Shown here piece after piece: positions 5,467 through 35,807 of a stretch of 64,000 nucleotides of DNA (within the stretch, counting starts at the first letter, position 1; each line of letters opens with the position of its first letter). The stretch is from Rhodanobacter sp. 7MK24 (GTDB lineage Bacteria > Pseudomonadota > Gammaproteobacteria > Xanthomonadales > Rhodanobacteraceae): assembly GCF_014842995.1 (NCBI RefSeq), contig NZ_JACYXL010000001.1, positions 311,183-375,182 on the forward strand. The letters run 5' to 3'. The position numbers and the translations under genes were made by a program. A model generated the notes under the pieces. The model worked only from the letters and a program-made list of their open reading frames with translations, was not told the DNA's origin and made no database searches.

Positions 5467-5467
5467 G

Positions 5468-8306: not shown

Positions 8307-8378
8307 GAGCGCACCCTGTGCGCCGTTGCCTTACGCCTCGATCGAAGTGCAAGGCAATCGCGCACAGGGTGCGCTCCA
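8304..8378. repeat. Interspersed palindromic repeat (REP-like)
   Basis: GGAGCGCACCCTGTGCGC (8306-8323) is repeated in perfect inverse at 8360-8377. A second inner pair, TTGCCTT (8326-8332) and AAGGCAA (8351-8357), makes a long cruciform. It sits between convergent ctaG and the PCuAC gene, so it may also serve as a two-way terminator. The motif is of a type recalled as dispersed in pseudomonad and xanthomonad genomes. Confidence 0.85.
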
Positions 8379-8384
8379 ACCGGG

Positions 8385-9439: not shown

Positions 9440-9590
9440 GTGAGAATCCGTGGACTGCAACCGCGCAAGCATACGCCAGCGATGGTGGGCACCGTCCATG
9501 GTGTTCGCCACTCGCACCGGCGCCGACATGCCGTCGGAAACCACGGCTGGCGGCCTTCGCGCAATGCGCCACACATTTTCGGAGCCTGCC

Positions 9591-9971
9591 ATGCTGCGAC
9601 AAACTGTCCGATCCCGTGCCGGCCTGCTTGCCGGTATCGCCGGCGCCAGCGCAGTGTTGTCCGGCGCATTCGGTGCGCATGCCTTGCGCGACGTGCTCGA
9701 TCCGGCGCATCGCGAGTTGTGGCACACGGCGGTGGAATACCACGCATGGCACGCGTTGGCCTTGGTGCTGGCAGTGGGTCTGGGCCGCGGGCGCGCAGGC
9801 CGCTGCGCGGCGTATGCGTTCGTGCTGGGCATCGTGCTGTTCAGCGGGAGCCTGTACGCGCTGGCGTTGGGCGCACCGCACTGGACGGGCATCGTCACAC
9901 CGTTCGGTGGCGTGGCCTTCGTGATCGGATGGATCGCACTCGGCCTGGCGCTGCGTCGGCGCGCGGACTGA
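9591..9971 (+). CDS. DUF423 (YgdD-like) membrane protein
   Basis: This 126-residue protein has four hydrophobic helices and the family opening GAFGAHALR, followed by a HTAVEYHAWHALAL segment typical of DUF423. GGAG lies six bases before the ATG at 9591, which fixes the start inside a longer frame. It is an inner-membrane protein of unknown function. Confidence 0.88.
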   Translation: MLRQTVRSRAGLLAGIAGASAVLSGAFGAHALRDVLDPAHRELWHTAVEYHAWHALALVLAVGLGRGRAGRCAAYAFVLGIVLFSGSLYALALGAPHWTGIVTPFGGVAFVIGWIALGLALRRRAD

Positions 9972-10011
9972 CCGTCGGCCCGTCACTCGTCTGTCATCCC
10001 GCCAGGGGAAC

Positions 10012-10347
10012 ATGGCGGCCATGAGGCTCGCCACGATCCCGCATTCCCATCCGCGGTGGCTGGTTGCCGTGATGCTGACGGCGCTGGTCGTGACCGTATT
10101 GAACGGCTTTGGCCTGATTCGACCGCAGCCGGGATCCGGCACGTTCTTGGGCGGAGGCGACGCCGGCTACGATCGCCTGTTTGTTGTCGACGATCAGGGC
10201 GAGCGATTGACTGTCTACGATGCGACTGATGGACGCCCGCTGCGCCACTTCGACGCCAACGCCGCGGCTGCCGTGCTGGTCCGGCACGACGGCCGCGTAT
10301 TCGTGATGGCCGGTGACGGCACGCGCAGCGGCCCTGCGTTGCGGTAA
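10012..10347 (+). CDS. Small membrane-anchored hypothetical protein
   Basis: This 111-residue product has one hydrophobic helix (about residues 17-36). Its soluble part contains two short strands of the kind DRLFVVDDQGERLTVYDATDGR, which looks like one or two propeller-type repeats. AGGGGA precedes the ATG, and the in-frame ATG at 10021 is an equally good start. I do not recognise a family. It stands between the DUF423 gene and purT. Confidence 0.5.
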   Translation: MAAMRLATIPHSHPRWLVAVMLTALVVTVLNGFGLIRPQPGSGTFLGGGDAGYDRLFVVDDQGERLTVYDATDGRPLRHFDANAAAAVLVRHDGRVFVMAGDGTRSGPALR

Positions 10348-10470
10348 TCGCGACCAGCAGCCGGCAGCGATCATTGAGTCGAATCCACGCCGCCGCCCGG
10401 CCTGCCGAGCGGCCCCGAACACCGTTTCCCGGCCCGCTACAATGCTGCTTTGCCCGCGCCGGAGAATCCG

Positions 10471-11652
10471 ATGAAGCCATTTGGCACGCCCCATTCCGAT
10501 CATGCCCTGCGCGTGCTGCTGCTGGGTTCCGGCGAGCTGGGCAAAGAGGTGGCGATCGAACTGCAGCGCTACGCGGTGGAGGTGATCGCGGTGGATCGCT
10601 ACGCCGCTGCGCCGGCGATGCAGGTGGCGCATCGCAGCCATGTGATCGACATGCTCGACGGCAACGCCTTGCGCGCGCTGATCGAGCAGGAGAAGCCGGA
10701 CCTCGTGGTGCCGGAGATCGAGGCGATTCATACGCCCACCCTGGTGGAGATGGAGCGCGAGGGCCTGCACGTGATCCCCACCGCGCGCGCCGCGTGGCTG
10801 ACGATGGATCGCGAAGGCATCCGCCGGCTCGCCGCGCAGGAGCTGGAGCTGCCCACGTCCCCGTATCGCTTCTGCGACAACGAAGCGGACTACCGCCGCG
10901 CGGTGGCCGACATCGGCTATCCGTTCGTCATCAAGCCGGTGATGAGCTCCTCCGGCAAGGGCCAGAGCGTGGTGCGCGACGAGTCCGAATTGCAGCATGC
11001 CTGGGAGTACGCGCAGTCCGGCGGTCGCGCCGGCAAGGGCAGGGTGATCGTCGAAGGCTTCGTCGATTTCGATTTCGAGATCACCCTGCTCACGGTGCGC
11101 CACAGGGACGGCACCAGCTTCTGCTTGCCGATCGGCCATCGGCAGGAAGATGGTGACTACCGCGAGTCGTGGCAGCCGCAGCCGATGAGCGACAAGGCAC
11201 TGGCCGAGGCGCAGCGCCAGGCCGCAGCAGTGTCGAACGCGCTGGGTGGCTGGGGCGTCTTCGGCATGGAGTTCTTCGTCAAGGGCGACGCGGTGATCTT
11301 CTCCGAGGTCAGTCCGCGCCCGCACGACACCGGTCTGGTCACGCTGATCTCGCAGGATTTGTCGGAGTTCGCGCTGCACGCGCGGGCGATTCTCGGCCTG
11401 CCGATTCCGGTGATCCGCCAGTTTGGGCCGTCCGCTTCGTGCGCGGTGCTGGTGGAGGGCGAGGGCTGCGCGCCGCGCTACCACGGCGTGGCGGCGGCGC
11501 TCGCCGAACCGGACACGCAGTTGCGCGTGTTCGGAAAGCCCGAGGTGAAGGGGCGGCGGCGCATGGCGGTGACGTTGGCGCGCGATGGCGACATCGAAGC
11601 GGCGCGCGCGAAGGCCGTGCGCGTGGCGGCGCAATTGCGCGTGGAGCTGTAG
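10471..11652 (+). CDS. purT: Formate-dependent phosphoribosylglycinamide formyltransferase (GAR transformylase 2)
   Basis: This 393-residue protein has the usual PurT length. An N-terminal nucleotide-binding fold ([18 protein letters not shown]) is followed by an ATP-grasp domain ([31 protein letters not shown]). It makes formyl-GAR from GAR, formate and ATP in purine synthesis, independently of folate. GGAGA lies five bases before the ATG at 10471. It is cytoplasmic and monocistronic here. Confidence 0.97.
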
Positions 11653-11711
11653 GCATGCGACATGCCTGATGCGCTAGGCTTCGACCGGTTCGCAACGCAC
11701 GGGAGGCGCTT

Positions 11712-13238
11712 ATGGAATCGACGGGTTTTTCACCCTGGCTGGTGATGCTGGTACAGACGTTCGCGGTGCTGTTCCTGCTGCTGGTGGCGGTGGTCGTGGT
11801 GGTGATCGCGGCGGTGTGGGTACTGGACCGCAACCAGACCGGCAACGCCGTGCTGCGCAATTTCCCGGTGATCGGCCACTTCCGTTACGGCTTCCTGCGC
11901 CTGGGCGAATTCTTCCGCCAATACCTGTTTTCCAGCGATCGCGAGGAAATGCCGTTCAACCGCGCCCAGCGCGTGTGGGTATACCGCGCCGCGAAGAACG
12001 CGGACAACACCAACGCCTTCGGCTCCACCCGCGACCTGCGCGGCGAGGGTGTGCCGTTTTTCGTCAACGCGGCGTTTCCCGCTCTGGGCGACCACCATGT
12101 GGAGCCGCAGCCGGTGCGCATCGGCCCGTATGCGCGCGAACCCTACGACCACGCCGCGTTCTTCAACATCTCCGCGATGAGCTTCGGCGCGCTAGGTGCG
12201 CCCGCGGTGCGCGCGCTGTCGCATGGTGCCGCCAAGGCCGGCATCTGGATGGATACCGGCGAAGGCGGCCTCGCGCCCTACCACCTCGAGGGCGGCTGCG
12301 ACATCGTGTTCGAGATCGGTACCGCCAAGTACGGCGTGCGCACGCCGGACGGCAAGCTGGACGACACCAAGCTCACTGCGATCTGCGCGCACAAGCAGGT
12401 GAAGATGGTCAGCATCAAGCTCGGCCAGGGCGCCAAGCCCGGCATGGGCGGCCTGTTGCCGGCGGCCAAGGTGACGCCGGAGATCGCCGAGATCCGCGGC
12501 ATCCCCGTGGGGGAGGATTCGCAGAGCCCGAACCGGCACCTGGATATCGGCAATGTGGCGGAACTGCTGGCTGCCATCCATCACATCCGCGAGCTCACCG
12601 GCAAGCCCACCGGCTTCAAGGCGGTGTTCGGCGACATGGCCATGATCGAGGAACTGTGCGACGAGGTGCGCAGGCGCGGCATCGAGAGCGCGCCGGACTT
12701 CATCATCGTGGACGGTTCCGAGGGCGGCACCGGCGCCGCACCGCAGACCTTGATGGAGGGCGTGGGCCTGCCCTTGCACGAGGCGTTGCCCGCGCTGGTC
12801 GACACCCTGGTCGTCAAGGGTCTGCGTGAGCGCGTCAAGGTGATCTGCTCCGGCAAGCGCATCACCGCCTACGACGTGGCGTGGGCCTTGTCGATGGGCG
12901 CGGACTTCGTCAACTCCGCCCGCGGCTTCATGCTGGCGCTGGGCTGCATCCAGTCACTGCAGTGCAACCGCAACACCTGCCCCACCGGCATCACTACGCA
13001 GAACCCGAAGTTGCAGCGCGGCCTGGTGGTCACCGACAAGAGCGAGAAGGTGGCGAACTACGCGAAGAACGTGATGTACGAAGTGGGCATCATCGCCCAC
13101 AGCTGCGGCGTGGACGACCCGCGCCAGCTCGACCGCACGCATTGCCGCGTTGTGGGAGACGACGGCATCTCCGTGCCGCTGGTGGAGTTGTTTCCGTATC
13201 CGGTAGCGCCGGGCGCCGCCGAAAGGCTCAGTTCGTGA
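11712..13238 (+). CDS. FMN-binding glutamate synthase family protein (membrane-anchored GltB-like)
   Basis: This 508-residue protein has an N-terminal TM segment (about residues 10-36). The rest matches the central FMN domain of glutamate synthase (MSFGALGAPAVRALSHGA; IIVDGSEGGTGAAP; a Cys cluster LQCNRNTCPTG that may hold a Fe-S cluster). The glutaminase domain is absent, and no small-subunit gene is adjacent, so true glutamate synthase activity is unlikely. The reaction and electron donor are unknown. The 3' end overlaps the convergent FHA-GGDEF gene by 11 bases. Confidence 0.88.
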   Translation: MESTGFSPWLVMLVQTFAVLFLLLVAVVVVVIAAVWVLDRNQTGNAVLRNFPVIGHFRYGFLRLGEFFRQYLFSSDREEMPFNRAQRVWVYRAAKNADNTNAFGSTRDLRGEGVPFFVNAAFPALGDHHVEPQPVRIGPYAREPYDHAAFFNISAMSFGALGAPAVRALSHGAAKAGIWMDTGEGGLAPYHLEGGCDIVFEIGTAKYGVRTPDGKLDDTKLTAICAHKQVKMVSIKLGQGAKPGMGGLLPAAKVTPEIAEIRGIPVGEDSQSPNRHLDIGNVAELLAAIHHIRELTGKPTGFKAVFGDMAMIEELCDEVRRRGIESAPDFIIVDGSEGGTGAAPQTLMEGVGLPLHEALPALVDTLVVKGLRERVKVICSGKRITAYDVAWALSMGADFVNSARGFMLALGCIQSLQCNRNTCPTGITTQNPKLQRGLVVTDKSEKVANYAKNVMYEVGIIAHSCGVDDPRQLDRTHCRVVGDDGISVPLVELFPYPVAPGAAERLSS

Positions 13239-23965: not shown

Positions 23966-24037
23966 GGTGCACCTCATCGCCGACGTGGATGTGGATGGCG
24001 ATTATGGTGCGAAAGCGTGGTGGGCGGCGTGAAAGGC

Positions 24038-24063
24038 GCCCGCTCCCGCTTGCGGGAACGGGC
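24038..24063 (-). terminator. GC-rich hairpin after the carboxypeptidase gene
   Basis: GCCCGCTCCCGC pairs with GCGGGAACGGGC at 11 of 12 positions, just downstream of the S10 gene stop. No T-run follows, so its termination activity is uncertain. Confidence 0.4.
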
Positions 24064-24072
24064 AACGCGTTC

Positions 24073-25575
24073 TCAATTCACCCCGTACAAGGTCTTCACG
24101 TCCCGCAGCAGGTCTGCTTGGCTCGACGGCCGCGCATAGAACATATGGCCACCCGGGTATTCCTTCACCTGTACGCGGGTCGGGTCGCCCATCGCAGGCA
24201 TCTGGTCCACGATCAGCACCGAAGCCATGAACGGGCAGGAGAGGTCATCCCAACCGTGGGCGATCAGCACGCGCAGGCCGGGGTCGTTCGCCACCGCTTC
24301 GCGCAGTTGCGCCACCGAGCCGTTGTTGGCGTCTTCGTCGTCGTGCCACATGCGACCCACGTCGTAGCTCAGCGCGCTGTAGCGTCCGTCGTATTTCCAG
24401 CCTACGGTCTGGGTGACGAAGTTCACCATCGCGGTGGTGGTGGGGGCGATGATGCCATTGAGGATGGGGTCGCCCGAGGTCTGATGCGGCGCGTAGGGGA
24501 AGGGATCCCAGGCAGTGACGTTGGAGTCGTAGCGGCTACCCAGCTTGCCTTCGGCGCGGTACACCTCGCGCAGGTAGGCCTGGGTTTCCAGCCGGCCGCC
24601 CGAGCGCTGTACGAACAACGGGTCGAGGCCGGTGAGTGCGGTCACCTTGCGAATCATCGCGTCGGTAGCAGCCGGGTTGCTGCGACCCTGCATCAGCGTG
24701 TCGGCATAGGTGGTGCGCGTGTAGTCGATGATGGATTGCATCGATTGCGCGTCGAGCTTGCCCTCGCGCTCCAGGTGCGCGGCGGCGATGGACGGCAGGG
24801 TGAGCATCCACGGCAGCGGCGAGACATTCTCGTCGTCCGACGCTGCTGGATCGAGGTAGGGCGACAGCAGCACCACGCCGTTCATCGCCACGCCCAACTG
24901 GGTCTGCAGATAGTCGGTGATGCGCGGGCCGCGGAAGCCGCCGTAGCTCTCGCCCACCAGGTACTTGCGCGACTCCATGCGGCCGTTCTTGAGCAGCCAG
25001 TCGTAGATGATGCGCGAGAGGTAATGGATGTCGCTGTTGGTGCTGTAGAAATCCTTGGTGGCTTCCTTGTCGTCCACCAGCGCGCGACTGAAGCCGGTGC
25101 CTACCGGGTCGATGAACACCAGATCGGTGAAGCCCAGCCAGGTGCCGGGGTTGTCGTGCAGCATGGCGGGGTCGGACGGGTTGTCGCCTTCCACGCCGAA
25201 GTTCACCTTCTTCGGGCCGATGGCGCCGAGGTTGAGGTACACCGAGGAGGCGCCCGGGCCGCCATTCAGCGCAAAGGTCACCGGGCGATTTTTGCCGGGC
25301 ATGGTGTAGGCGGTGAACATCACTTGAGCGATCACCTTGCCCGTGTCGTCGCGCACAGGCAGCGAGCCCACGGTGGCGGTGTACGACAACGTATGGCCGC
25401 CGGCCGTGGCGGATTGCGCAACATGCGCGTCGGCTGGGAAAGGTGGCAACTGGAAGCCATTGCCGGTACCTGGTGCTTCCGCCGCTGGCGGCTTCTTGTC
25501 GGCAGCCAGTGCCGAGTGGTGGAAACCGGCCAACAGCAGGGCTGCCAGCAGGCTCGTTTGCAGCGGCTTGCGCAC
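24073..25575 (-). CDS. Serine carboxypeptidase, S10 family
   Basis: This 500-residue protein has a signal peptide (about residues 1-24). It shows the S10 motifs NGGPGASS (oxyanion), GESYGG (nucleophile Ser), and late Asp and His positions (GWDDLSCP; PGGHMFY). It removes C-terminal residues from peptides, here in the periplasm or outside the cell. Bacterial S10 enzymes of this order are common and work at acidic pH. It is divergent from the cyclase/peptide cluster that begins 221 bases away; 25576-25796 shows no gene. Confidence 0.92.
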   Translation of the reverse strand: MRKPLQTSLLAALLLAGFHHSALAADKKPPAAEAPGTGNGFQLPPFPADAHVAQSATAGGHTLSYTATVGSLPVRDDTGKVIAQVMFTAYTMPGKNRPVTFALNGGPGASSVYLNLGAIGPKKVNFGVEGDNPSDPAMLHDNPGTWLGFTDLVFIDPVGTGFSRALVDDKEATKDFYSTNSDIHYLSRIIYDWLLKNGRMESRKYLVGESYGGFRGPRITDYLQTQLGVAMNGVVLLSPYLDPAASDDENVSPLPWMLTLPSIAAAHLEREGKLDAQSMQSIIDYTRTTYADTLMQGRSNPAATDAMIRKVTALTGLDPLFVQRSGGRLETQAYLREVYRAEGKLGSRYDSNVTAWDPFPYAPHQTSGDPILNGIIAPTTTAMVNFVTQTVGWKYDGRYSALSYDVGRMWHDDEDANNGSVAQLREAVANDPGLRVLIAHGWDDLSCPFMASVLIVDQMPAMGDPTRVQVKEYPGGHMFYARPSSQADLLRDVKTLYGVN

Positions 25576-25796
25576 GGGTGTGTCCTCGCGTGGAAAAGCC
25601 CTAGCCTAGCGAGCCGCGCTGCGGCGCAACCGTGCCTGATGGCATGGATGGCGAGGCGCTACGAGCGCCTCGGTGACCTCGCAGGCGAACCATGCCATGC
25701 TTGTACGGCTGTGGAGGATGGAGCGGGCAACGGACAGGTGCCGCGGGCGGAGGCCGGATGTGACCTGTTGTTGCGCGAGTTCATGGGGGTGGGGGC

Positions 25797-27566
25797 ATGG
25801 CTTGGCTATTCGGCAGCACCAGAACGCGGCTCGCGTGGGCGGCCCTCGCAGGCTGCCTGTGCTGGCAGACCGGCCTGGCCGTTGCGGCCTTGGCCAATCC
25901 GGATGCCCTGATCAAGCAGATCTATGCACTGCAGGTCACGGATCACGCGCGATCCTTGCAAGTGCTGGCCCAGCTCAACCAGCAGGCCGCCAACCTGACG
26001 CCCGCCCAGCAATGGCAGATGCGCTATCTCAACGCCTGGGAGGTCATGTACCAGGGGGACTACGCCAAGTCGGAGGCCATGCTCAGTGATGTCATCGAGC
26101 GTTCCGGCAATCAGCAGTTGGCGAACCATGCCTCTGCCGCGCTGCTGAGCCAGCTCGGGGCTGCCCGGCATTACACCGAGGCGTTCGAGCTGGCCAATCG
26201 TGTCGCGGCGCGCCTGCCCCAGGTCACGGATGCCAAGGATCGCCGCCTGCTGCTGTCCAACCTGTCCCAGGTGATGGGATCCGCCGGTCAGACCGATCTG
26301 GCCGTGCGCTACGCGCGCATGGCGATGGCGACCGTTCCTGCCGGCGAAAGCCAGTGCTACCCCACTTCGATACTGGTCGAGGTGCTGTACTACGGCAAGC
26401 GGCTCAAATCCGACAGCCCGGAGCTGCAACAGGCTTTCGAGGCCTGCCCGGTGACCACGGTGTCGCTGTACAACACCAACTTGCAACTCATACTCGCCGA
26501 CCTGCTCCTGCAGGAAGGGCAGCCGCGCAAGGTGCTTGCGCTGATCGACCGGATCCAGCCCAGAATCGACACCAATGGCTATGTTCCAGCCAGATTGTCG
26601 GCGTTGGTTGACAGAGCATCCGCACTGGCTGCCTTGGGCGAGGACGATGCCGCCAGGCGGTTGGCATCGGCAGTCGTCGCCGAGGGGAAATCGGGCGACA
26701 TCGACGCCTGGCTGAAGGAAGCCTACGAGGTGCTCTACCGCGTCGAGAAAAAGCAGGGGAATGCCGCTGCCGCGCTCGGCAACTACGAGAAGTTCGCTGC
26801 GCTAGACAAGGCCTACCTCGACGACATCCATGCACGCGCCTTGGCGTACGAAGCGGTGGAGCAGCACGTGCTGGCGCAGAAGCTGGAGACGGAAAAGCTG
26901 AGCCAGCAGAACGCCGACCTGCGCACGCAGCAGCAACTGGACGCCAAGACGGCCGAGGCCAACCGGCTTTACCTCGCGCTGCTGCTCATGGCGCTGGGCT
27001 TCGGCGCGCTATGGATGTTCCGGCTCAAACGCTCGCAGCTGCGCTTCAAGCGACTGTCACACCTCGATGGACTGACCGCCATCTACAACCGCCAGCACTT
27101 CATGGGTGAGGCCGATCGCGCGCTGCGCCAGTCGGAGAAGCGCAAGGGCGCGGCGTGCCTGGCCTTCATCGACCTGGACCACTTCAAACGCATCAACGAC
27201 AGCCACGGCCATGCCACAGGCGACCAGGTGCTGCGCCGCGTGGTGGATGCCTGTCGCCAACACCTGCGCACCGCCGACCTGTTCGGTCGTCTCGGCGGCG
27301 AGGAGTTCGGCATCCTGCTGGTGGACTGTTCTAGCGAGCAGGGCGTGGCGATTGCCGAACGCATCCGCGCCACCATCGAGGCCACTGTGGTGGAACTCGA
27401 TGGCGTGATCGTGACGGTTTCCACCAGCATCGGCCTGGCCTTTACCGATGGCATCGGCCATGACTTGCATCGCCTCTGTACGGAGGCCGACGCCGCCTTG
27501 TACCGGGCCAAGCATGACGGGCGCAACTGCGTGATGACGGGTGTAGAAAGCCTGGCGATGGCCTGA
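25797..27566 (+). CDS. Membrane diguanylate cyclase 1 with helical-repeat periplasmic sensor
   Basis: This 589-residue protein starts with a signal sequence containing LAGC (a possible lipobox) and ending near residue 30. A TPR-like helical region follows (about 35-345), then a short coiled coil and one TM helix (391-408). The cytoplasmic GGDEF domain has GGEEF at 500-504. RTAD five residues before GGEEF is an inhibitory I-site. Cys187 and Cys217 in the sensor are kept in both paralogues and may form a disulfide. The methyltransferase gene follows after 77 bases. It should make c-di-GMP in response to an extracytoplasmic signal. Confidence 0.92.
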   Translation: MAWLFGSTRTRLAWAALAGCLCWQTGLAVAALANPDALIKQIYALQVTDHARSLQVLAQLNQQAANLTPAQQWQMRYLNAWEVMYQGDYAKSEAMLSDVIERSGNQQLANHASAALLSQLGAARHYTEAFELANRVAARLPQVTDAKDRRLLLSNLSQVMGSAGQTDLAVRYARMAMATVPAGESQCYPTSILVEVLYYGKRLKSDSPELQQAFEACPVTTVSLYNTNLQLILADLLLQEGQPRKVLALIDRIQPRIDTNGYVPARLSALVDRASALAALGEDDAARRLASAVVAEGKSGDIDAWLKEAYEVLYRVEKKQGNAAAALGNYEKFAALDKAYLDDIHARALAYEAVEQHVLAQKLETEKLSQQNADLRTQQQLDAKTAEANRLYLALLLMALGFGALWMFRLKRSQLRFKRLSHLDGLTAIYNRQHFMGEADRALRQSEKRKGAACLAFIDLDHFKRINDSHGHATGDQVLRRVVDACRQHLRTADLFGRLGGEEFGILLVDCSSEQGVAIAERIRATIEATVVELDGVIVTVSTSIGLAFTDGIGHDLHRLCTEADAALYRAKHDGRNCVMTGVESLAMA

Positions 27567-27643
27567 GCTAAGCAATGCACTGAAATGCTGCGTCCCTCCA
27601 TGCCACCGCAGGCGCAGGGAGGAAAGTTCGCTAAGATCGCCTG

Positions 27644-28480
27644 ATGACCAACACCATTCTTCCTTCCCTGAACGTTCCCGGCCGTGGCCGCCTGGCCTGC
27701 GTGGGCCTGGGCATGACGCTGGGCTCCCACCTCACCCCGCTGGCGCGTAGCCATATCGTGCAGGCGGACGTGGTGTTCGCCGCGCTCTCCGACGCCATCG
27801 CGGAGGAGTGGTTGAAACGTATGCACCCGGACGTGCGCAGCCTGCAGCCCTACTATGCCGAGGGCAAGCCGCGCATAAAGACCTACCGTGAGTGGGTGGC
27901 GTTGATGATGGCCGAATTGCGCACTGGCAAGCGGGTCTGCGGCGTGTTCTATGGTCACCCGGGCATCTTTGCATGGTCGCCGCACAAGGTGATCGAGCAG
28001 GCCCACGCGGAAGGTTACGAGGCGCACATGGAGCCGGGCATCTCTGCCGAGGACTCCCTTTACGCCGATCTCGGCTTCGACCCCGGCCGCTACGGCTGCC
28101 AGCACTTCGAGGCCAGCCAGCTGCTGTACTGCGAGCGGCGCATCGACCCGGCCGGTTATCTAGTGCTGTGGCAGGTGGGGGTGATCGGCAACCGTTCGGT
28201 GGGGCGTTTCGACGCTGGCCTGGCCTACCGGGCACTTTTGGTGGAGCGGCTGGGGCAGGACTACCCGCTGGAACATGAAGTCATCATTTATCGCGGTGCC
28301 ACCTTGCCCATTGAGCGGCCGCGCATCCAGCGCATTACCTTGCGCGAACTGGCCGAGGTGCCGTTGACCGCCGAGGAAACCGTGGTGCTTCCCCCAGCCG
28401 TGACCTTGCAGCCGAACCGTGCGATGCTGGAGCGGCTGCAAACGCTGGATGCAAGGGAGAAGGAAGGCGCAGCGGCCTGA
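27644..28480 (+). CDS. Tetrapyrrole-methylase-fold peptide N-methyltransferase, borosin (SonM-like) candidate
   Basis: This 278-residue SAM enzyme has the TP-methylase opening LACVGLGMTLGSHLT and a GHPGIF loop. The stretch MEPGISAEDSLYADLG is very close to what I recall of Shewanella SonM. Y71, R77, Y81 and Y103 have exactly the spacing of the OphMA active-site residues Y66, R72, Y76 and Y98 (from memory). Borosin enzymes N-methylate the backbone of their own C-terminus or of a separate peptide; with no core fused here, this is the split type. A candidate precursor follows 56 bases later. Uroporphyrinogen methylation is unlikely: no cobalamin or siroheme gene is near. A GGGAGG sequence lies upstream, but at long spacing. 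Confidence 0.85.
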   Translation: MTNTILPSLNVPGRGRLACVGLGMTLGSHLTPLARSHIVQADVVFAALSDAIAEEWLKRMHPDVRSLQPYYAEGKPRIKTYREWVALMMAELRTGKRVCGVFYGHPGIFAWSPHKVIEQAHAEGYEAHMEPGISAEDSLYADLGFDPGRYGCQHFEASQLLYCERRIDPAGYLVLWQVGVIGNRSVGRFDAGLAYRALLVERLGQDYPLEHEVIIYRGATLPIERPRIQRITLRELAEVPLTAEETVVLPPAVTLQPNRAMLERLQTLDAREKEGAAA

Positions 28481-28536
28481 GGCGAGATGGTGCGGCGCGG
28501 TAGTGCTGCCCGAATATAAGGAAACAGGGGAACAAG

Positions 28537-28836
28537 ATGACCGATACGATTGAATTGCTTGAAGCCATCGGCAGCGATGCGTCGCTGCGCTACGCCTCGG
28601 CTGACATATTGAATGGAGTGTTGGAGCAGACGCATGCCAGCGCCGAACTGATGACGGCCGTGGCAGCGGGTAACGGCGCGTCGCTGCGGGTGGAACTGGG
28701 CATCCAGCAAGTGCCCCAAACTCCCCAGTCACCGACTCAGCTTCCCGGGCAGGAGCCCGACGAAGAGGAGGAAGAGGAAGCTCCGCAGTCGGAGCGCTGC
28801 CACTCCGACCATCCGTCGTCCTTGTCCTTCCAGTGA
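28537..28836 (+). CDS. Candidate borosin precursor peptide 1
   Basis: This 99-residue peptide has a helical leader (residues 1-55, starting MTDTIELLEAIGSDASLRYA) and a divergent tail with Gln/Pro, a run of six Glu and a Cys/His/Ser end. The leader resembles the SonA binding domain/LigA-like pattern: leucine and DA anchors, then AV..G..SL..EL. It is about 74% identical to precursor 2 over 54 residues by hand count, while the tails do not align. AGGGGAA precedes the ATG. It sits between the methyltransferase (56 bases) and cyclase 2 (33 bases), so one transcript is likely. The modified positions are unknown. Confidence 0.75.
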   Translation: MTDTIELLEAIGSDASLRYASADILNGVLEQTHASAELMTAVAAGNGASLRVELGIQQVPQTPQSPTQLPGQEPDEEEEEEAPQSERCHSDHPSSLSFQ

Positions 28837-28869
28837 GACGTGTCACCCTGACGCCCGCTGGTGTGCAGC

Positions 28870-30642
28870 ATGTTCCGGTGGCCAATTAGCCTGCGGAGAT
28901 GCGCTGCACGCATAGGCTTTGCCAGCTGTTTGTGCTGGCAAGTGGGCTTTGCTGCCACGCCCATCGCAGATCCGGATGCCTTTCTCAAGCAGACCCAGGA
29001 TCTGCAACTCAAGAATCACCTCAGATATCTTGAGCAACTGGCCCAACTCAATCAACAAGCATCCAGCCTGACACCGGACCAGCAGTGGCGCCTGCGATTC
29101 CTGAATGCCTGGGAGGCCATGTACGAGAGTGACTACGTCAAGTCAGAGGCTTTGCTTCAGGACATCATCCGGCGATCCGGTGATCCGGCGTGGGTGGATC
29201 GTGCATCTGCTTTGCTGCTGGGCCAACTTGGACTCACCCGGCGTTACACGGAAGCATTTGAGCTAGCCAACCGCGTCGCGGAGCGCTTGCCACAGGTGAC
29301 GGATACGAAGATTCGTTCGACCCTGTTGGTGAACCTGTCGAGTACCTTGGGCTTGGCCGGACAGGCCGACTTGGCTGTGCGCTATGCGCACATGGCTTTG
29401 GCTGCCATTCCTGCGGGGGAGGGTTCGTGCCGGACCTTTGCCTTTCTAGTCTCGGCGCTCTACAACGGCCAGAGGCTCAAGCCTGATAGCCCGGAGTTGC
29501 AACAGGCTCTAGATACTTGTCCAGCGGCTAGTGAGCCGGTGTACCACACGCAACTGGTGCTAACACTCGCCGATCTGTATGCGAACGGAGGGCAACCGCG
29601 CAAGGCGTTGGCGTTGCTCGACAGCATCGAGTCCAGCCTGGAGGCCAACGGCTATGTTCCAGCCAAATTGTCGGCTCTGGTAAACAGGGCGCAGGCGTTG
29701 GCCGCCCTGGGCGACGATGATGCTGCCAAGCAGGCGGCGTTGGCCGTGGTTGCCGAGAAGAAATCGAGTGATATCGATGCGTGGCTGAAAGACACTTACG
29801 AGGTGCTTTACCGCATCGAGAAAAGGCAGGGCCATACCGCCGCTGCCCTCGACTATTACGAGAAGTTCGCTGCACTGGACAAGGCCTACCTCGACGATAC
29901 TCATGCGCGAGCCCTGGCCTATGAAGCAGTGCAGCAGCATGTGTTGTTGCAGAAGCTGGAGACCGAAAAGCTGAGCAGGCAGAACGCCGGGTTGCGCGCG
30001 CTGCAGATGCTAGATGCCAAGACGGCAGAGGCCCACCGGCTTTACCTCGTGCTGCTGCTTATGGCGCTGGGCTTCGGTGCGTTGGCGATGTTCCGGCTCA
30101 AGCGCTCGCAACTGCGCTTCAAGCGGTTGTCGCACCTCGATGGCCTCACCGCCATCTACAATCGCCAGCACTTCATAGTCGAAGCCGAGCGCCTGCTGCA
30201 CCAGCTTGAGAAGCGGAAAGGCGCAGCCTGCGTGGCCATCATCGACCTCGACCATTTCAAGAGCATCAACGATACCTATGGCCATGCCATGGGAGACGAG
30301 GTGCTGCGTCGCGTGGTTATTGCCTGCAATCAACACCTACGCACCGTCGACCTGTTCGGCCGCCTCGGCGGCGAGGAGTTCGGCATCCTGCTGACGGATT
30401 GTTCGCACGAGCATGGTATGGCGATTGCCGAACGCATCCGAGCGGCCATCGAGGCCACCGTAGTGGAACTCGATGGTGTGATCGTAGCCGTTTCAACCAG
30501 CATCGGCGTTGCTTTCACCGATACCGCCGGACACGACTTGCACCACCTTTGTTCCGCTGCCGACGCGGCGCTGTACGGTGCCAAGCGGGGTGGGCGCAAC
30601 CGTGTGGCGGCCAGCGGCGTCGAGGATCTCGTGGCAGCCTGA
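28870..30642 (+). CDS. Membrane diguanylate cyclase 2 (paralogue)
   Basis: This 590-residue paralogue of the first cyclase has the same layout: signal sequence with CLCW, helical-repeat sensor with Cys187 and Cys217, one TM helix near 391-408, and GGEEF at 500-504 preceded by the I-site RTVD. I chose ATG 28870 because it matches the N-terminus of the other copies. A GTG at 28861 is also in frame, and neither start has a clear ribosome site. It lies 33 bases after precursor 1. The 3' third is nearly identical to cyclase 3, showing recent duplication or gene conversion. Confidence 0.9.
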   Translation: MFRWPISLRRCAARIGFASCLCWQVGFAATPIADPDAFLKQTQDLQLKNHLRYLEQLAQLNQQASSLTPDQQWRLRFLNAWEAMYESDYVKSEALLQDIIRRSGDPAWVDRASALLLGQLGLTRRYTEAFELANRVAERLPQVTDTKIRSTLLVNLSSTLGLAGQADLAVRYAHMALAAIPAGEGSCRTFAFLVSALYNGQRLKPDSPELQQALDTCPAASEPVYHTQLVLTLADLYANGGQPRKALALLDSIESSLEANGYVPAKLSALVNRAQALAALGDDDAAKQAALAVVAEKKSSDIDAWLKDTYEVLYRIEKRQGHTAAALDYYEKFAALDKAYLDDTHARALAYEAVQQHVLLQKLETEKLSRQNAGLRALQMLDAKTAEAHRLYLVLLLMALGFGALAMFRLKRSQLRFKRLSHLDGLTAIYNRQHFIVEAERLLHQLEKRKGAACVAIIDLDHFKSINDTYGHAMGDEVLRRVVIACNQHLRTVDLFGRLGGEEFGILLTDCSHEHGMAIAERIRAAIEATVVELDGVIVAVSTSIGVAFTDTAGHDLHHLCSAADAALYGAKRGGRNRVAASGVEDLVAA

Positions 30643-30773
30643 CGAAGGGCGTGCCCATTTCTGGTCTTTTGCGGACAGGGAAAGAAAGCTAGGCCAGCAT
30701 GGGAATCCGCCGGCTCGCCGGGGAGGCCATAGAAATCTGATGACTCCGGGAGTCCACCGGCCACCTGGCGCAG

Positions 30774-30937
30774 GTGTATGGGGAACACAAGCGGAACTTC
30801 GTGAGGCAAAGTTTTTGGGCGCGGGGCTATTTTGTCTCGACGGTGGAGCGCGACGAAGAGAAGAAGTGATCCGAGCGTACATCCGCAGCCAAGAGGCCGA
30901 GGATCACCGGTTGGAGCAATTGAAGCGACTGCGATGA
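30774..30937 (+). pseudogene. IS200/IS605-type transposase (tnpA) fragment, frameshifted
   Basis: One frame encodes WARGYFVSTVERDEE and then stops. The neighbouring frame continues with EVIRAYIRSQEAEDHRLEQL. Together these form the C-terminal segment of IS200-group Y1 transposases (usual pattern W-x-R-G-Y-x-V-x-T-V...YI..Q..ED). The catalytic HUH and Tyr parts upstream are gone. It is a dead remnant. Confidence 0.8.
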
Positions 30938-31050
30938 CGCCCGTCACCGAAAGGTGGGGCCTATGGCTGGGGTTGAGTTAGCGATCCCGATTCAGCCTCT
31001 TTGAGCGGCTTACACAGCTAAAACCCCAGCTTTGCCGGGGGATACTTGCC
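30938..31050 (+). mobile_element. Right-end remnant of the IS200/IS605-like element
   Basis: A CTTTGAGCGGCTTACACAGC segment is followed by a hairpin CCCCAGC (31024-31030) / GCCGGGG (31034-31040) and GATACTTG. This is the kind of imperfect subterminal hairpin that marks the right end of these elements. No intact left end was found. In the 747 bases between cyclase 2 and precursor 2, stretches 30643-30773 and 31051-31227 show nothing I recognise. Confidence 0.6.
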
Positions 31051-31227
31051 TTGAGATCGCCTCCGCCAGCTATTCGTGGAGTGTTTCGATACTGCTCCGA
31101 CCTGCCGTGCTCTGCTGGAGCGGCTGTGAAAGATGGCCAGCCAGAGCAGGGGATTGCTGTCCATCGGGGTCACGCTGTGTGCCGAGCAACCATGCGTTGC
31201 CTTGTATGGACTAATTGAAGCGCTCAT

Positions 31228-31322
31228 CGCCGCCGAGGAAATCGGGGGGCATCGTGACCTTGCAACCGAACCGTGCCATGCTGGAGTGGCAACAGGCATC
31301 CGGATGCGGCGGCTTAGGTTGA
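31228..31322 (+). pseudogene. 3'-end remnant of a second borosin-type methyltransferase gene
   Basis: Bases 31254-31290 match the methyltransferase gene's 3' end at 34 of 37 positions by hand count, encoding VTLQPNRAMLE in the same frame and running to a TGA at 31320. The flank CGCCGAGGAAA (about 31230-31240) also matches, with a deletion of about nine bases between. The rest of the gene is missing. It lies just upstream of precursor 2, in the same relative place as the intact gene before precursor 1. Confidence 0.85.
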
Positions 31323-31389
31323 CATCGCGGTCCAGATTCTGGGACTGGGCCGTGAAGGCGCCTTGCGATCAAGGGAACGGGGGGAGAAC

Positions 31390-31695
31390 ATGGCTGATAC
31401 GATCGAATTGCTGGAAGCCATCGGTAGCGATGCATCGCTGCGTTATGCGCAGGTCGATGAATTGAAAGCCGTGCTGGAACAGACTCAGGCGAGCGTCGAA
31501 CTTACGGAGGCGGTGGTTCAGGGCGATGGCGCGTCGCTGCGCAAAGAATTGAAGCTCCAAGAGACAACCCAGGTGCAGCAGACGCACGCACCGGGTCACG
31601 AGGGAGACGACGACGGTGAATGCGATCCTCCCAAGCCGGAGCGTCACCCGCCCGAAAGATCGCCATCGCAACCGCCCGCAAATACGTCTCATTGA
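31390..31695 (+). CDS. Candidate borosin precursor peptide 2
   Basis: This 101-residue paralogue of precursor 1 starts MADTIELLEAIGSDASLRYA. The leader (residues 1-54) is conserved; the tail is different, with QTHAPGHEGDDDGECDPP and then a Pro/Ser/His-rich end. GGGGAGA precedes the ATG at 31390; in-frame codons further upstream lie outside the conserved leader. Cyclase 3 follows after 25 bases. Its own methyltransferase is only a remnant, so it would have to use the intact enzyme encoded about 3 kb upstream. Confidence 0.72.
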   Translation: MADTIELLEAIGSDASLRYAQVDELKAVLEQTQASVELTEAVVQGDGASLRKELKLQETTQVQQTHAPGHEGDDDGECDPPKPERHPPERSPSQPPANTSH

Positions 31696-31720
31696 GCCGA
31701 AGCCTGGCAAGTGAAGCCAT

Positions 31721-33490
31721 ATGCTTCGGCGACCAAGCAATTGGGGGCAATGGGTAGCAGGCGCGACCTTCGCAGGTTGCCTGTGCTTGCAGGCTGCTTT
31801 TGCGTCGACTTCCGCCACCGATCCGGACGCGTTGCTCAAACAGACCTGGGATCTGCAGGTCACGGATCATTCGCGTTCCTTGCAATTGCTGGCTCAGCTC
31901 AATCAGCAAGCCTCTAGCCTGACGCCGGATCAACAATGGCACCTGCGTTTTCTCAACGCATGGGAGGCCAAGTACGAAAGCGATTATGAAAAGTCGGAGG
32001 CGCTGCTCAAGGATATCGCGCTGCACTCCGGCAATCCGCAGTTGGCAGATCGCGCTTCAGCCATGCTGTTGAGCCAGTATGGAATTACCCATCGTTACAC
32101 CGAGGCGTTTGATCTGGCGGACCGGCTTGCTGTGCGGTTGCCGCAAATTACCGATGCCAAGGTTCGCTATTCACTACTTCTGAATCTGTCGCAAGCGATG
32201 GGTTTGGCTGGCCAGACGGACTTGGCCGTGCGTTATGCGCACATGGCGATGGCGACCGACCCCGCGGTAGACAGTCGATGTTATGCAACCGCGATTCTGG
32301 TTGAAGTGCTCTTCAATGGTCACAGACTCAAGCCCGACAGCCCGGAGCTTCAGCAGGCGTTTGAGGCTTGCCCGGTGGCTACGGAGCCGCTTTATAACAC
32401 GGGTATTGCTGTTGACTTGGCTGACCTGTACGCCCATGGGAAGGAGCCGCGTAAGGCGTTGGCTCTGCTCGACCAGATCCAGTCACGTGTGGATGTTTCT
32501 GGCTACGTTTCCAACAAGCTGACCATGCTGGAGATAAGAGCAAGGGCGCTGGATGCTTTGGGCGAGGATGATGCTGCCCGGAAGGCGGCGCTTTCCATCA
32601 TCGCGGCGGGACGGTCGAGTGACTTCGATTTGTGGCTGAAGGATGCATACGAGGTGCTTTATCTCATCGAGAAAAAGCAGGGAAATACTGCTGCTGCACT
32701 CGATTATCACGAGAACTTTACGGCGCTGGACAAGGTCTACCTCGACGATATCCACGCGCGTGCGCTGGCTTACGAAACGGTCCAGCAGCGTGTACTTTTG
32801 CAGAGACTGGAGACGGAAAAGCTGAGCGAGCAAAACGCCGGCTTGCGCGCGCGGCAGAAGCTGGACGCGAAGACCGCCGAGGCTAACCGGCTTTACCTTG
32901 TGTTGCTGCTCATGGTGCTGGGTTTCGGTGCGGTGTGGATGTTCCGGCTCAAGCGTTCGCAACTGCGCTTCAAGCGGTTGTCGCACCTCGACGGTCTGAC
33001 CGCCATCTCTAACCGCCAGCACTTCATGAGTGAAGCCGGGCGCGTGTTGCACCAGCTGGAGAGACGGAAGGGCGCTGCCTGCGTGGCCATCATCGACCTC
33101 GACCACTTCAAGAGCATCAACGATACCCATGGCCATGCCATGGGCGACGAAGTGTTGTGCCGCGTGGTTGAAGCCTGCAAGCAGCACCTACGTACCGTCG
33201 ACCTGTTCGGCCGCCTCGGCGGTGAGGAGTTCGGCATCCTGCTGGTGGATTGCTCGCGTGAGCAGGGCGCCGCCATCGCGGAGCGCATGCGCGCCGCCAT
33301 CGAAGCCACCGTGGTGAAGCTGGATGGTGTGATCGTGACGGTGTCCACTAGTGTCGGGCTGGCTTTCACCGACACCACCGGCCACGACTTGCATCGCCTT
33401 TGCACCGAGGCTGATGCCGCGCTGTACGGCGCCAAGCGCGGCGGCCGCAACCGCGTGATGGCTGGAGCAGAGGATCTCGCCGCGGTCTGA
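31721..33490 (+). CDS. Membrane diguanylate cyclase 3 (paralogue)
   Basis: This 589-residue protein has the same architecture as cyclases 1 and 2. It has a signal sequence with FAGCLC, a helical sensor with Cys187 and Cys217, a TM helix around 391-408, I-site RTVD and GGEEF at 500-504. All three copies keep register to the residue, so they stem from tandem duplication and all look catalytically intact. The sensor halves have diverged more than the GGDEF halves. It is the last gene of the cluster. Confidence 0.92.
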   Translation: MLRRPSNWGQWVAGATFAGCLCLQAAFASTSATDPDALLKQTWDLQVTDHSRSLQLLAQLNQQASSLTPDQQWHLRFLNAWEAKYESDYEKSEALLKDIALHSGNPQLADRASAMLLSQYGITHRYTEAFDLADRLAVRLPQITDAKVRYSLLLNLSQAMGLAGQTDLAVRYAHMAMATDPAVDSRCYATAILVEVLFNGHRLKPDSPELQQAFEACPVATEPLYNTGIAVDLADLYAHGKEPRKALALLDQIQSRVDVSGYVSNKLTMLEIRARALDALGEDDAARKAALSIIAAGRSSDFDLWLKDAYEVLYLIEKKQGNTAAALDYHENFTALDKVYLDDIHARALAYETVQQRVLLQRLETEKLSEQNAGLRARQKLDAKTAEANRLYLVLLLMVLGFGAVWMFRLKRSQLRFKRLSHLDGLTAISNRQHFMSEAGRVLHQLERRKGAACVAIIDLDHFKSINDTHGHAMGDEVLCRVVEACKQHLRTVDLFGRLGGEEFGILLVDCSREQGAAIAERMRAAIEATVVKLDGVIVTVSTSVGLAFTDTTGHDLHRLCTEADAALYGAKRGGRNRVMAGAEDLAAV

Positions 33491-33533
33491 TCCGTCGTGA
33501 CGGTTCGGCCCGTGTACGCCGGCTGGTGCGTTT

Positions 33534-34067
33534 TTACGTTTCGTCGCCCTGCATCGACTTGAGCAGTTGGAACAGCTCGCGGTATGCACGTGGCGGTTTG
33601 TTCGGCGTGGTTTTTTCGACGCGTGCCTGGCGGATCAAGGCACGCAGGTGCTGACGGTCCACGCCGGGGTGCTGCTCGATCAGTTCCGAAGCCGCCGCAT
33701 CGCCATCGTCGCCCAACAGGCGTTCGCGCAGCGCTTCCATGCGATGCATCGCGGCCGTCTCCTGCCGCTGGCGGTCGCGGTTCTCGCCCAGTGCGGCGCG
33801 CACCGAGTCGAAGGCCTCGGTGTCGTGGCGGCGCATCAGCTTGGCGAGAAAGGCCAGCTCGCGCTTGCGCGCGATGTGCGAGGTGATGCGGCGCAAATGG
33901 GCGATCTCGTCGCGCACGTCGTCGGGCAAGTCCAGCTTCGCCAGTCGTGTCGGCGGCAGCTCGACCAGTTGGTTGGCCAGCTCCAGCACGGCCAGCGCGT
34001 CGCGGCGCTGTTGCGTGCGGGTGGGGCCGTAGTCGTGATCGGGGTCGTCGGTGTAATTGCGGTTCAT
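33534..34067 (-). CDS. darP: Ribosome-associated protein YjgA/DarP
   Basis: This 177-residue, highly charged helical protein shows the family stretches RRDALAVLELANQLVELP and HLRRITSHIARKRELAFLAKLMR. DarP (YjgA, DUF615) joins late 50S assembly intermediates and helps the peptidyl-transferase centre mature. The start overlaps the stop of the DUF1653 gene (ATGA). Confidence 0.92.
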   Translation of the reverse strand: MNRNYTDDPDHDYGPTRTQQRRDALAVLELANQLVELPPTRLAKLDLPDDVRDEIAHLRRITSHIARKRELAFLAKLMRRHDTEAFDSVRAALGENRDRQRQETAAMHRMEALRERLLGDDGDAAASELIEQHPGVDRQHLRALIRQARVEKTTPNKPPRAYRELFQLLKSMQGDET

Positions 34068-34354
34068 TGGTTTTCCAGCAGGCGCGGGCTTTCGAGCAAG
34101 CCAGGTTCGGCCTGTTCCAGCGCGAAACGGGGCAGGCGCGCGCCGTCCACGGTGACGCTTTCGGCAAACATCGCCGCGGGGCGCACCCACAGGCCGTGCT
34201 CGCCGTACAGCGCCTGGTACACCACCAACGATTCTTCCGTCTCGCTGTGGCGTGCGGTGCCCAGCACGCGGTAGCGCTGGCCCTTGTAGTGGCGGTAGAG
34301 GCCGGGGACGACCGACATGCGCTGTGGCTCCGCGGTACGTTGCGGGTGGGCCAT
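34064..34354 (-). CDS. DUF1653-family protein
   Basis: This 96-residue protein has the DUF1653 core (GLYRHYKGQRYRVLGTARHSET; LVVYQALYG; WVRP). The start may be ATG 34354 or an internal ATG 12 codons later; the family core begins after both. It is coupled to darP. Function unknown. It diverges from pmbA. Confidence 0.82.
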   Translation of the reverse strand: MAHPQRTAEPQRMSVVPGLYRHYKGQRYRVLGTARHSETEESLVVYQALYGEHGLWVRPAAMFAESVTVDGARLPRFALEQAEPGLLESPRLLENQ

Positions 34355-34439
34355 GGCGCCCCCATGTGGAGACGGCACGGCGCGGATCGTGCATTCTACC
34401 CGTTTGTATCCAACCCGTTGACTTGCCTGAGAGCTTCCC

Positions 34440-35807
34440 GTGAGCGAGATTGCCACCAGCACCGACCGCAGCCTTGAGGAACTGGACCGCCTCGCCAACC
34501 TCGCCGAGGACGTGATCCGTCGCGCCCGCGCGGCCGGCGCCAGCGCCGCCGAGGTGGCCGCAAGCATCGATACCGGCCTCAACGTGAACGTGCGCCTGGG
34601 CGAGGTGGAGACGGTGGAGCACACCCGCGACCGTGGCTTCGGTCTCACCGTCTACTTCGGCCAGCGCAAGGGCTCGGCCAGTACGGCCGACCTCAACCCC
34701 GATTCGATCCAGGCCACGCTGGACCAGGCCTGCGCCATCGCCAGGTTCACCGAGGAGGATCCGGCCGCGGGTCTGGCCGATGCCGCGCGCATGGCCAGGG
34801 ATTTCCCCGACCTCGACCTGTGGCACCCCTGGGCCATCGATACCGCAGAGGCCATCGAGCTGGGCCGGCGCATCGAGGATGCCGGCCGCGCGCATGCGGG
34901 CATCGCGAACTCCGACGGTGCCGGCGTGCAGGCAGGCGAGAGTCTGTCGGTATACGCGAACTCGCATGGCTTCCTGGGCCGCGAGCGCGGCACGCGGCAT
35001 TCGCTGTCGCTGTCGTTGATCGCAGGTGAAGGCGAGCGCATGCAGCGCGACTATTGGTACGACAGCGCGCGCGACGCCGGTGATTTCATGAGCGCCAAGG
35101 CGCTGGGCGACAAGGCCGCCGAGCGCACGCTGGCGCGCCTGGACGCACGCAGCTTGACCACCCGCGAATGCCCGGTGCTGTTCGCGCCGGAGATCGCGCG
35201 CGGGCTGGTCGGCCATCTGGTCGGCGCGGTGAGCGGCGGCGCGCTGTATCGCCGCGCCAGCTTCCTGCTCGACCATGCCGGCAAGGCGATCATGCCGGCA
35301 TGGCTGCATATCGACGAAAAGCCGCATTTGCAGCGAGGTCATGCCTCGGGCAACTTCGATGCAGAAGGCGTGGCCACGCGCGACAGCGCACTGGTTGAGG
35401 GTGGCGTGCTGGCGCGCTACGTGCTGGGCAGCTATTCGGCACGCAAGCTCGGCCTGCAATCCACCGGCAATGCCGGCGGCATCCATAACCTGCGGGTGGC
35501 GCCCGGCGCGGCCGACGGCGAGGCCAGCGACTTCGCGGGCATGCTGCGCCGGCTGGGTACCGGTCTGCTGGTCACCGAGGTGATGGGGCAGGGCGTGAAC
35601 ACCATCACCGGTGATTACTCGCGCGGTGCGGCGGGCTTCTGGGTGGAGAACGGCGCAATCGCCTACCCGGTCGAGGAAATCACCATCGCCGCGAACCTGC
35701 GCGACATGTACGCCGGCATCCGCGCTGTCGGTGCGGATGTCGATCCGCGTTCGCACATCCTGTGCGGTTCGATCCTGGTGGACCGGATGACAGTGGCGGG
35801 CGGCTGA
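34440..35807 (+). CDS. pmbA: Metalloprotease TldE/PmbA
   Basis: This 455-residue protein starts with GTG. It shows the TldD/TldE family pattern (VNVRLGEVETVEHTRDRGFGLTVYFG; STGNAGGIHNLRV; late VEEITIAANLRDMY). PmbA/TldE pairs with TldD to form a peptidase that trims leader or core peptides such as microcin B17, and takes part in CcdA turnover. TldD is not in the window. Its closeness to the putative RiPP cluster (about 1 kb) is noteworthy but may be chance. Confidence 0.95.
   Translation: MSEIATSTDRSLEELDRLANLAEDVIRRARAAGASAAEVAASIDTGLNVNVRLGEVETVEHTRDRGFGLTVYFGQRKGSASTADLNPDSIQATLDQACAIARFTEEDPAAGLADAARMARDFPDLDLWHPWAIDTAEAIELGRRIEDAGRAHAGIANSDGAGVQAGESLSVYANSHGFLGRERGTRHSLSLSLIAGEGERMQRDYWYDSARDAGDFMSAKALGDKAAERTLARLDARSLTTRECPVLFAPEIARGLVGHLVGAVSGGALYRRASFLLDHAGKAIMPAWLHIDEKPHLQRGHASGNFDAEGVATRDSALVEGGVLARYVLGSYSARKLGLQSTGNAGGIHNLRVAPGAADGEASDFAGMLRRLGTGLLVTEVMGQGVNTITGDYSRGAAGFWVENGAIAYPVEEITIAANLRDMYAGIRAVGADVDPRSHILCGSILVDRMTVAGG

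Follow-up and report, generated by a model that had tools for sequence, protein, structure and literature searches.

We analysed a 64,000-nucleotide stretch of the Rhodanobacter sp. 7MK24 genome, referred to here as the window, in which a methyltransferase gene lies among genes for short peptides and for TPR-GGDEF proteins. A preliminary description of this DNA had proposed a split-borosin RiPP pair, made up of a SonM-like methyltransferase and a leader-bearing peptide encoded 56 nt downstream. Both ORFs were recovered at that distance, 278 aa (27644-28480) and 99 aa (28537-28836), and the enzyme and peptide assignments are supported; the pair itself proved incomplete, as a second precursor at 31390-31695 and three TPR-GGDEF proteins had been missed. 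The features of the locus are as follows.

25670..25723, + strand: weak, possible methyltransferase C-terminal remnant upstream of G1 (tblastn E 1.6; an argument from position only)
25797..27566, + strand: TPR-GGDEF protein G1, 589 aa (GGDEF E 1.1e-41; hydropathy peaks at 15 and 390)
27644..28480, + strand: SonM-like borosin alpha-N-methyltransferase, 278 aa (assigned from structure search, active-site map and pN/pS)
28537..28836, + strand: borosin precursor A1, 99 aa (binding domain 1-55, core-like PQTPQSPTQLPG, acidic tail)
28861..30642, + strand: TPR-GGDEF protein G2, 593 aa (GGDEF E 2.1e-41; transmembrane peak at 393)
31085..31286, + strand: decayed remnant of a second methyltransferase copy (VTLQPNRAMLE, 11/11, at 31254-31286; tblastn E 0.013)
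31390..31695, + strand: second borosin precursor A2, 101 aa, with an acidic tail
31721..33490, + strand: TPR-GGDEF protein G3, 589 aa (GGDEF E 3.6e-40; transmembrane peak at 390)

Split borosins are an established kind of system (PMC8429565; PMC11285071, in the portions available to us), and the type IV example SonM/SonA of Shewanella oneidensis (PDB 7LTC, 8T1T; PMC8429565) keeps its methyltransferase and precursor separate, as does the window. The locus has these features of a split (type IV-like) borosin: separate genes, an enzyme related to SonM and OphMA that carries the Y, R, Y, Y set, and an N-terminal binding domain on the peptide. Its likeness to SonM/SonA extends to identity at 111/251 aligned enzyme residues, the active-site residues and a SonA-type binding domain. 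It differs in its tandem array, which holds TPR-GGDEF genes and a pair of precursors, and in the length of the precursors, which are 99 and 101 aa and acidic-tailed compared with about 71 aa for SonA.

The methyltransferase and its active site

The 278-aa product matches Pfam TP_methylase (E 9.8e-20), in line with the fold originally named for it. In a phmmer search of the PDB, the top solved-structure match is SonM (7ltc_A, E 1.4e-66), followed by chains of MroMA, dbOphM and OphMA (E 1.8e-44 to 3.2e-42, about 1e-43), while the best tetrapyrrole enzyme, precorrin-2 C20-methyltransferase, reaches E 0.009 only. None of the NCBIfam tetrapyrrole models attains its own cut-off on the enzyme: the precorrin-3B models score 17.3 bits (cut-off 391) and 13.8 bits (cut-off 246), precorrin-2 14.8 bits (cut-off 163) and CysG 12.2 bits (cut-off 400), and the highest NCBIfam match, YabN, scores 34.6 bits against a cut-off of 525. 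Together with the gap between SonM and precorrin methylase in the structure search, these scores lead us, by sequence search, to reject a porphyrin methylase and support placing the product of 27644-28480 with the SonM/OphMA-type borosin enzymes, as had been proposed. The segment MEPGISAEDSLYADLG, already noted as close to SonM, is identical to it at 13/16 positions in the structure-search alignment. The genome (4.15 Mb in 37 contigs) holds one methyltransferase gene of the SonM-like kind and three TP_methylase genes in all, and the closest of these to the locus after the enzyme itself lies ~600 kb off, which agrees with the earlier remark that no siroheme or cobalamin genes are near. Compared with five relatives, the enzyme has a pN/pS of 0.11-0.17, a rough figure given that synonymous sites are near saturation.

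Alignment places Y71, R77, Y81 and Y103 of the enzyme on SonM Y58, R67, Y71 and Y93, and F109, E156 and W176 on SonM F99, E146 and W166, so that 7/8 compared active-site residues are retained, the exception being SonM Q178, which is R188 here (SonM numbers and roles as given in the portion of PMC8429565 available to us). Across 74 distinct enzyme sequences, with the window enzyme counted, Y71, Y81 and Y103 are each conserved in 73, R77 in 72 and W176 in all 74. The preliminary description had matched the first four residues in spacing to those of OphMA, which it numbers Y66/R72/Y76/Y98. The spacing of 6/4/22 in the window enzyme does equal that of the OphMA-type KchMA (Y73/R79/Y83/Y105; PMC11395268, in the portion available); SonM differs, at 9/4/22, because it has three extra residues between Y58 and R67. 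The enzyme domain is thus related to that of the fused borosins OphMA/dbOphMA and KchMA, with the catalytic residues and the KchMA spacing, but in the window the enzyme and the core lie on separate proteins.

The SonA binding domain wraps round SonM loop 208-216 (PMC8429565, same portion). This loop, AANLPIQAP, aligns with residues 218-226 of the enzyme, GATLPIERP (5/9 identical), in which L221 is conserved in 65/74 and P222 in 68/74 enzyme sequences. A YPL(D/E)HEV stretch considered as a candidate docking loop was discarded in favour of this alignment.

Precursor peptides and the cyclase genes that follow them

A genome search with A1 returns A2 (59% identical, E 1.1e-22) and a third match that is noise (E 0.4), leaving two precursors in the genome. 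The A2 frame in the ORF list opens at TTG 31363; the start conserved among relatives, MADTIELLEAIG, lies at ATG 31390. When 61 relatives are compared by column, the conserved portion of the precursors is the first 55 positions; beyond these the sequence varies, then shows a P-Q pair (of the 36 sequences occupied at these columns, 32 have P and 27 have Q) and columns rich in D/E. With a profile built from 27 relatives, its positions 1-56 match SonA 1-56 at E 3e-8, and a profile of 17 relatives that leaves out LigA-like Burkholderiales members matches SonA at E 2.3e-6. A1 as a single sequence has no match among solved structures at E 10, and a profile of 11 close relatives searched against the same structures does not match SonA; as the wider profiles match and A1 alone does not, the binding domain is established by the family and not by the window peptide alone. 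With that reading, the leader ascribed to the peptide in the preliminary description is borne out as an N-terminal stretch of ~55 residues. Rough pN/pS values (synonymous sites near saturation) are 0.27-0.49 for the binding domain and 0.28-0.72 for the remainder, with the binding domain the more constrained in 7/9 comparisons and the reverse in 2/9.

SonA is annotated as LigA domain-containing, and in some members the binding domain belongs to the same sequence family as the LigA subunit of extradiol dioxygenases (PF07746): with an E limit of 0.1, 3/27 precursor members hit PF07746, the strongest at 1.1e-5. Neither A1 nor A2 matches it, and we noted no dioxygenase gene at the locus.

In the cores encoded in the window P, Q and T are frequent and aliphatic residues scarce, and NVCCMI-like stretches appear in other members. 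Such cores are a weak point of our reading; the borosin enzymes tested in print favour hydrophobic residues (PMC11395268; PMC11285071, in the portions available). By analogy with SonA, A1 and A2 are putative substrates of the methyltransferase and would be N-methylated on the backbone. In two further loci (L102 and L104), the precursors have repeated core-like units (e.g. ALMxxF or DFQAxQ repeats) and possibly carry several cores each.

Each precursor gene in the window is followed closely by a TPR-GGDEF gene, with G2 starting 24 nt past the A1 stop codon (a later start near 28870 is possible) and G3 starting 25 nt past that of A2. G1 lies just before the enzyme gene and has no precursor directly upstream; its layout is a signal-like N-terminus, a TPR domain, a transmembrane segment near 390 and a GGEEF cyclase domain. 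From their translations, G1-G3 all have GGEEF with an I-site (RTAD or RTVD) five residues ahead of it, and on this pairing of motifs they are predicted to be diguanylate cyclases. GGEEF is found in 57/57 full-length TPR-GGDEF relatives and an RxxD I-site in 54/57, a set that is not fully independent and from which 3 of 60 rows (other or broken proteins) were excluded. Although the genome has 39 GGDEF domains, three are joined to this TPR domain, all of them in the locus. The TPR domain is probably periplasmic, as judged from hydropathy and from N-termini assessed by eye; the N-terminal hydropathy peak passes the threshold in one of the three window proteins (G1), and a further peak lies at 531-534 within the GGDEF domain. 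C190 and C220 (G2 numbering) are invariant in an alignment of 21 TPR domains and may form a disulfide, and two such cysteines would fit an oxidising compartment.

The coupling of peptide to cyclase extends beyond the window. We tallied precursors from 139 rows, reduced to 115 distinct ones by dropping repeats and frames that leave the locus; matches entering the model after position 12 had been dropped beforehand, and a few truncated precursors were kept (30 aa, in L089). The next gene is a TPR-GGDEF gene for 69 of the 115, another precursor for 36, the enzyme for 5 and none of these for 5. The adjacency rule permitted up to 1000 nt, yet the gap from stop codon to cyclase start is at most 59 nt in 69/69 cyclase-adjacent peptides, with a median of 11 (starts estimated from the match). 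Counting a tail as acidic when 12 residues hold 5 or more D/E, we find one in 63/69 cyclase-adjacent precursors and 14/46 others (p 8e-12). This threshold was chosen after the data had been seen; thresholds of 4, 6 and 7 give p-values of 5e-12, 2e-19 and 4e-19, all of which ignore relatedness. Within loci that have both kinds of precursor, the cyclase-adjacent one is the more acidic in 13/16, equal in 1 and less acidic in 2 (16 loci from 17 rows, as L086 and L090 are one place), and the three exceptions are all from Burkholderiales, an order in which precursors beside GGDEF genes in L072, L073 and L076 have no acidic tail. Two long arrays follow the rule: 12 tandem precursors, one of them truncated, come after one methyltransferase in L087 (G112, 6851-13026) and 7 in L088 (G120, 3978-8857), with PQxxQ-like but differing cores, and in both arrays the last, cyclase-adjacent precursor is the only one with an acidic tail.

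The window locus is itself a tandem array. Over 2295 columns, DNA at 28368-30642 and DNA at 31230-33490 align at 72%, covering the enzyme 3' end, precursor and cyclase, so the duplicated unit included the methyltransferase 3' end. G1 and G3 share 75% DNA identity, and among the window copies the GGDEF domains are 79-84% alike compared with 64-66% for the TPR domains. In Rhodanobacter sp. DHB23 (L040) the array of such units is longer than in the window, and the identities between its precursors and those of the window give no one-to-one orthology. Promoter-like sites at the locus number 1 (shuffle mean 1.4) and terminator-like sites 10 (shuffle mean 4.4, sd 2.2), and an Rfam scan of window positions 24000-35000 gave nothing at gathering scores.

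Distribution of the locus and matched divergence

Within the window's family, the enzyme is found in 162/233 genomes (search at 1e-25), the precursor profile matches 164/233 (threshold 0.001) and the TPR profile 163/233 (threshold 1e-30). All three occur together in 161 genomes and none in 69, and the peptide is present in each of the 162 enzyme-bearing genomes, the enzyme set lying inside the precursor set. One genome (G036) is without a TPR match and two (G038 and G081) are without the enzyme; G038 was examined for a fusion in one frame, which gave nothing clear. The three components each span 18/26 genera, so the family genomes are not independent; in genus g5 the TPR matches are weak (1e-31 to 1e-36), and the figures there describe co-occurrence in genomes. 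As judged from these matches, the trio of enzyme, peptide and TPR-cyclase is a conserved unit. The rarity that the preliminary description had attributed to such systems does not hold in the family; in an even sample of the class, the enzyme occurs in 9/369 genomes, including the window's own and one other family member.

The named relatives that carry the locus are mostly Rhodanobacter, Dyella and kin, which makes Rhodanobacteraceae the probable family. Sequence downstream of the enzyme extends for 2.5 kb or more in 38 of 43 named loci, and in 35 of these 38 a TPR-GGDEF gene starts within 1.5 kb downstream; the other three are L073 and L076, with the gene upstream, and L053, without any. In the five shorter loci it is downstream in three and upstream in one, and the fifth (L039) ends 339 nt after the enzyme. 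The distant SonM relatives L094-L099 have no TPR-GGDEF gene within the stretch examined, and L093 has a weakly similar one. The precursor HMM misses 12 loci (L013, L039, L069, L074, L075 and L078-L084), of which L013 and L039 do have a tblastn precursor match in a frame cut by the contig edge. L069, L074 and L075, from Neptunicella, Alteromonas and a gammaproteobacterial MAG, have ORFs of 60-70 aa between the enzyme and the TPR-GGDEF gene that escape the precursor model, yet their ends look acidic by eye, e.g. IVCMIAPAEDDDETEE. In L060, which is labelled Candidatus Eremiobacteraeota, the enzyme is as query-like as that of L059 (Rhodanobacter sp. ANJX3) and the precursor is the same so far as compared; the bin may be contaminated.

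Peptide and TPR domain diverge together. Over 50 adjacent pairs, which are not independent, the similarity of the peptide C-terminal part (core and tail) correlates with that of the TPR domain at r 0.80, and at a partial r of 0.575 once the binding domain and GGDEF domain are accounted for (p 0.002, the floor of 499 permutations). The corresponding partial r of the peptide C-terminus with GGDEF, given the rest, is -0.11, and that of the binding domain is 0.458 with TPR and 0.207 with GGDEF. Nine loci have two units each, and swapping partners within them yields 512 assignments; these average r 0.552 for C-terminus and TPR, the true pairing reaches 0.837, and 2/512 assignments, the true one included, equal or exceed it. 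Other combinations also favour the true pairing, with 47/512 for binding domain and TPR, 37/512 for C-terminus and GGDEF, and 24/512 for binding domain and GGDEF. Linked inheritance of whole units accounts for part or all of this matched divergence; the data show that peptide and TPR domain travel as a pair, which falls short of showing that they touch, and since the TPR domain and the peptide tail both evolve fast, their correlation is no proof of contact.

A possible peptide input to cyclic-di-GMP signalling

We propose that the locus encodes a RiPP pathway of the split-borosin kind with a cyclic-di-GMP output of its own, in which the product feeds the neighbouring cyclase, and we give this reading a probability of about 0.6. 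Its core is supported at the level of sequence by the enzyme family, the binding domain, gene coupling, co-occurrence, the acidic-tail rule and matched divergence; methylation, cleavage, export, binding and the direction of the switch are steps that we infer. As SonM does with SonA, the methyltransferase would dock onto A1 and A2 through their N-terminal binding domains and N-methylate amides of the backbone past residue 55. A protease would free the core. Either this modified core or the complete precursor with its acidic tail would then be bound by the cyclase whose gene comes next, through its TPR domain. With that domain probably in the periplasm, the peptide input must cross the inner membrane, a step that N-methylation could ease; once bound, it would switch the GGEEF domain and so alter cyclic di-GMP. 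Weak points of this reading are the cores rich in P, Q and T, the lack of a conserved protease or exporter in the locus stretches compared, and the precursors that no cyclase directly follows. More tentatively, and at somewhat less than even odds, each acidic-tailed N-methylated peptide may be the cognate ligand of the TPR-GGDEF protein encoded next, with tandem units serving as parallel ligand-receptor channels into cyclic di-GMP. If true, this would be a RiPP-based peptide-signalling system of Gram-negative bacteria.

The position of the peptide genes directly before genes for predicted membrane sensors that would make cyclic di-GMP suggests a possible purpose for the modified peptides. Bacterial split borosins are described in print through their enzymology, with no stated biological role in the passages covered (PMC8429565; PMC11285071; PMC11395268), and a sensor-cyclase that is conserved, closely coupled to the peptide genes and diverging in step with them points to a direct, testable one, with N-methylated peptides as cyclic-di-GMP inputs. 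Such a role would add a class of peptide ligand to cyclic-di-GMP signalling and offer, for the engineering of N-methylated peptides, a wide choice of natural sets of enzyme, core and receptor. A link between GGDEF and borosins is at least partly in print, since the abbreviation GGDEF is expanded in the legend of Figure 1 of PMC11395268, a scheme of borosin types, where it stands either for a neighbouring gene or for a fused domain. Among the papers searched none combined borosin with diguanylate, and we met no account of precursor arrays, the acidic-tail rule or matched divergence in the portions of the literature covered by a search that was not aimed at them.

The product of the split borosin could instead act elsewhere, as a metallophore, an antimicrobial or a signal to others, with the cyclase tuning the system or merely co-transcribed rather than sensing. 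This is unlikely in our view. In its favour, 46/115 precursors have no cyclase directly after them, the SonM-type loci L094-L099 are without TPR-GGDEF genes in the stretch examined, and L087 and L088, with 12 precursors (one truncated) and 7, each have a single enzyme and a single cyclase. What speaks for sensing is that the acidic tail marks out the precursor next to the cyclase, at a gap that never exceeds 59 nt in the 69 cases, and that the C-terminal half of the precursor tracks the TPR rather than the GGDEF domain.

We regard as improbable a cytoplasmic arrangement in which the precursor stays intact, its binding domain being common to enzyme and cyclase, its tail tethering the GGDEF side and methylation acting as the switch. 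The lack of residual correlation between peptide C-terminus and GGDEF (partial r -0.11) and the predicted placement of the TPR domain outside the cytoplasm both argue against it, even though the gene pairing is very tight, the acidic tail is too long for a typical core and no conserved protease or exporter was found in the locus stretches compared. For this arrangement and for our own reading alike, a parallel exists in RcbAB of Vibrio vulnificus, in which a TPR-GGDEF cyclase is under a co-encoded partner, as may be the case in the window; there the partner is a TPR protein and not a RiPP precursor, and RcbB is predicted to be cytoplasmic (PMC12282931, in the portion available).

A decaying locus, with one live enzyme, a relict precursor pair and cyclases retained for other reasons, is very improbable: the methyltransferase remnant at 31085-31286 and the missing precursor of G1 would fit it, but pN/pS is low for the enzyme (0.11-0.17) and for the binding domain (0.27-0.49, both rough) and the catalytic residues are intact. 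That an ordinary tetrapyrrole methylase lies beside an unrelated small ORF has next to no probability, as the TP_methylase fold match that might suggest it is already contradicted by the sub-cut-off NCBIfam scores, by the preference for SonM (1.4e-66) over precorrin methylase (0.009) and by the peptide present in all 162 enzyme-bearing family genomes.

Genes flanking the array were also considered as sources of a processing enzyme. A serine carboxypeptidase of family S10 (24073-25575, - strand) was set aside, being beside the locus only in close relatives among the stretches compared. TldD/TldE proteins process some RiPPs, and a PmbA/TldE gene at 34440-35807 adjoins the array, beside a gene that we take to be YjgA-like. 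This candidate too was set aside, as PmbA and YjgA are found only in the window among the locus stretches compared, and its placement with the YjgA-like gene makes it probably a housekeeping gene.
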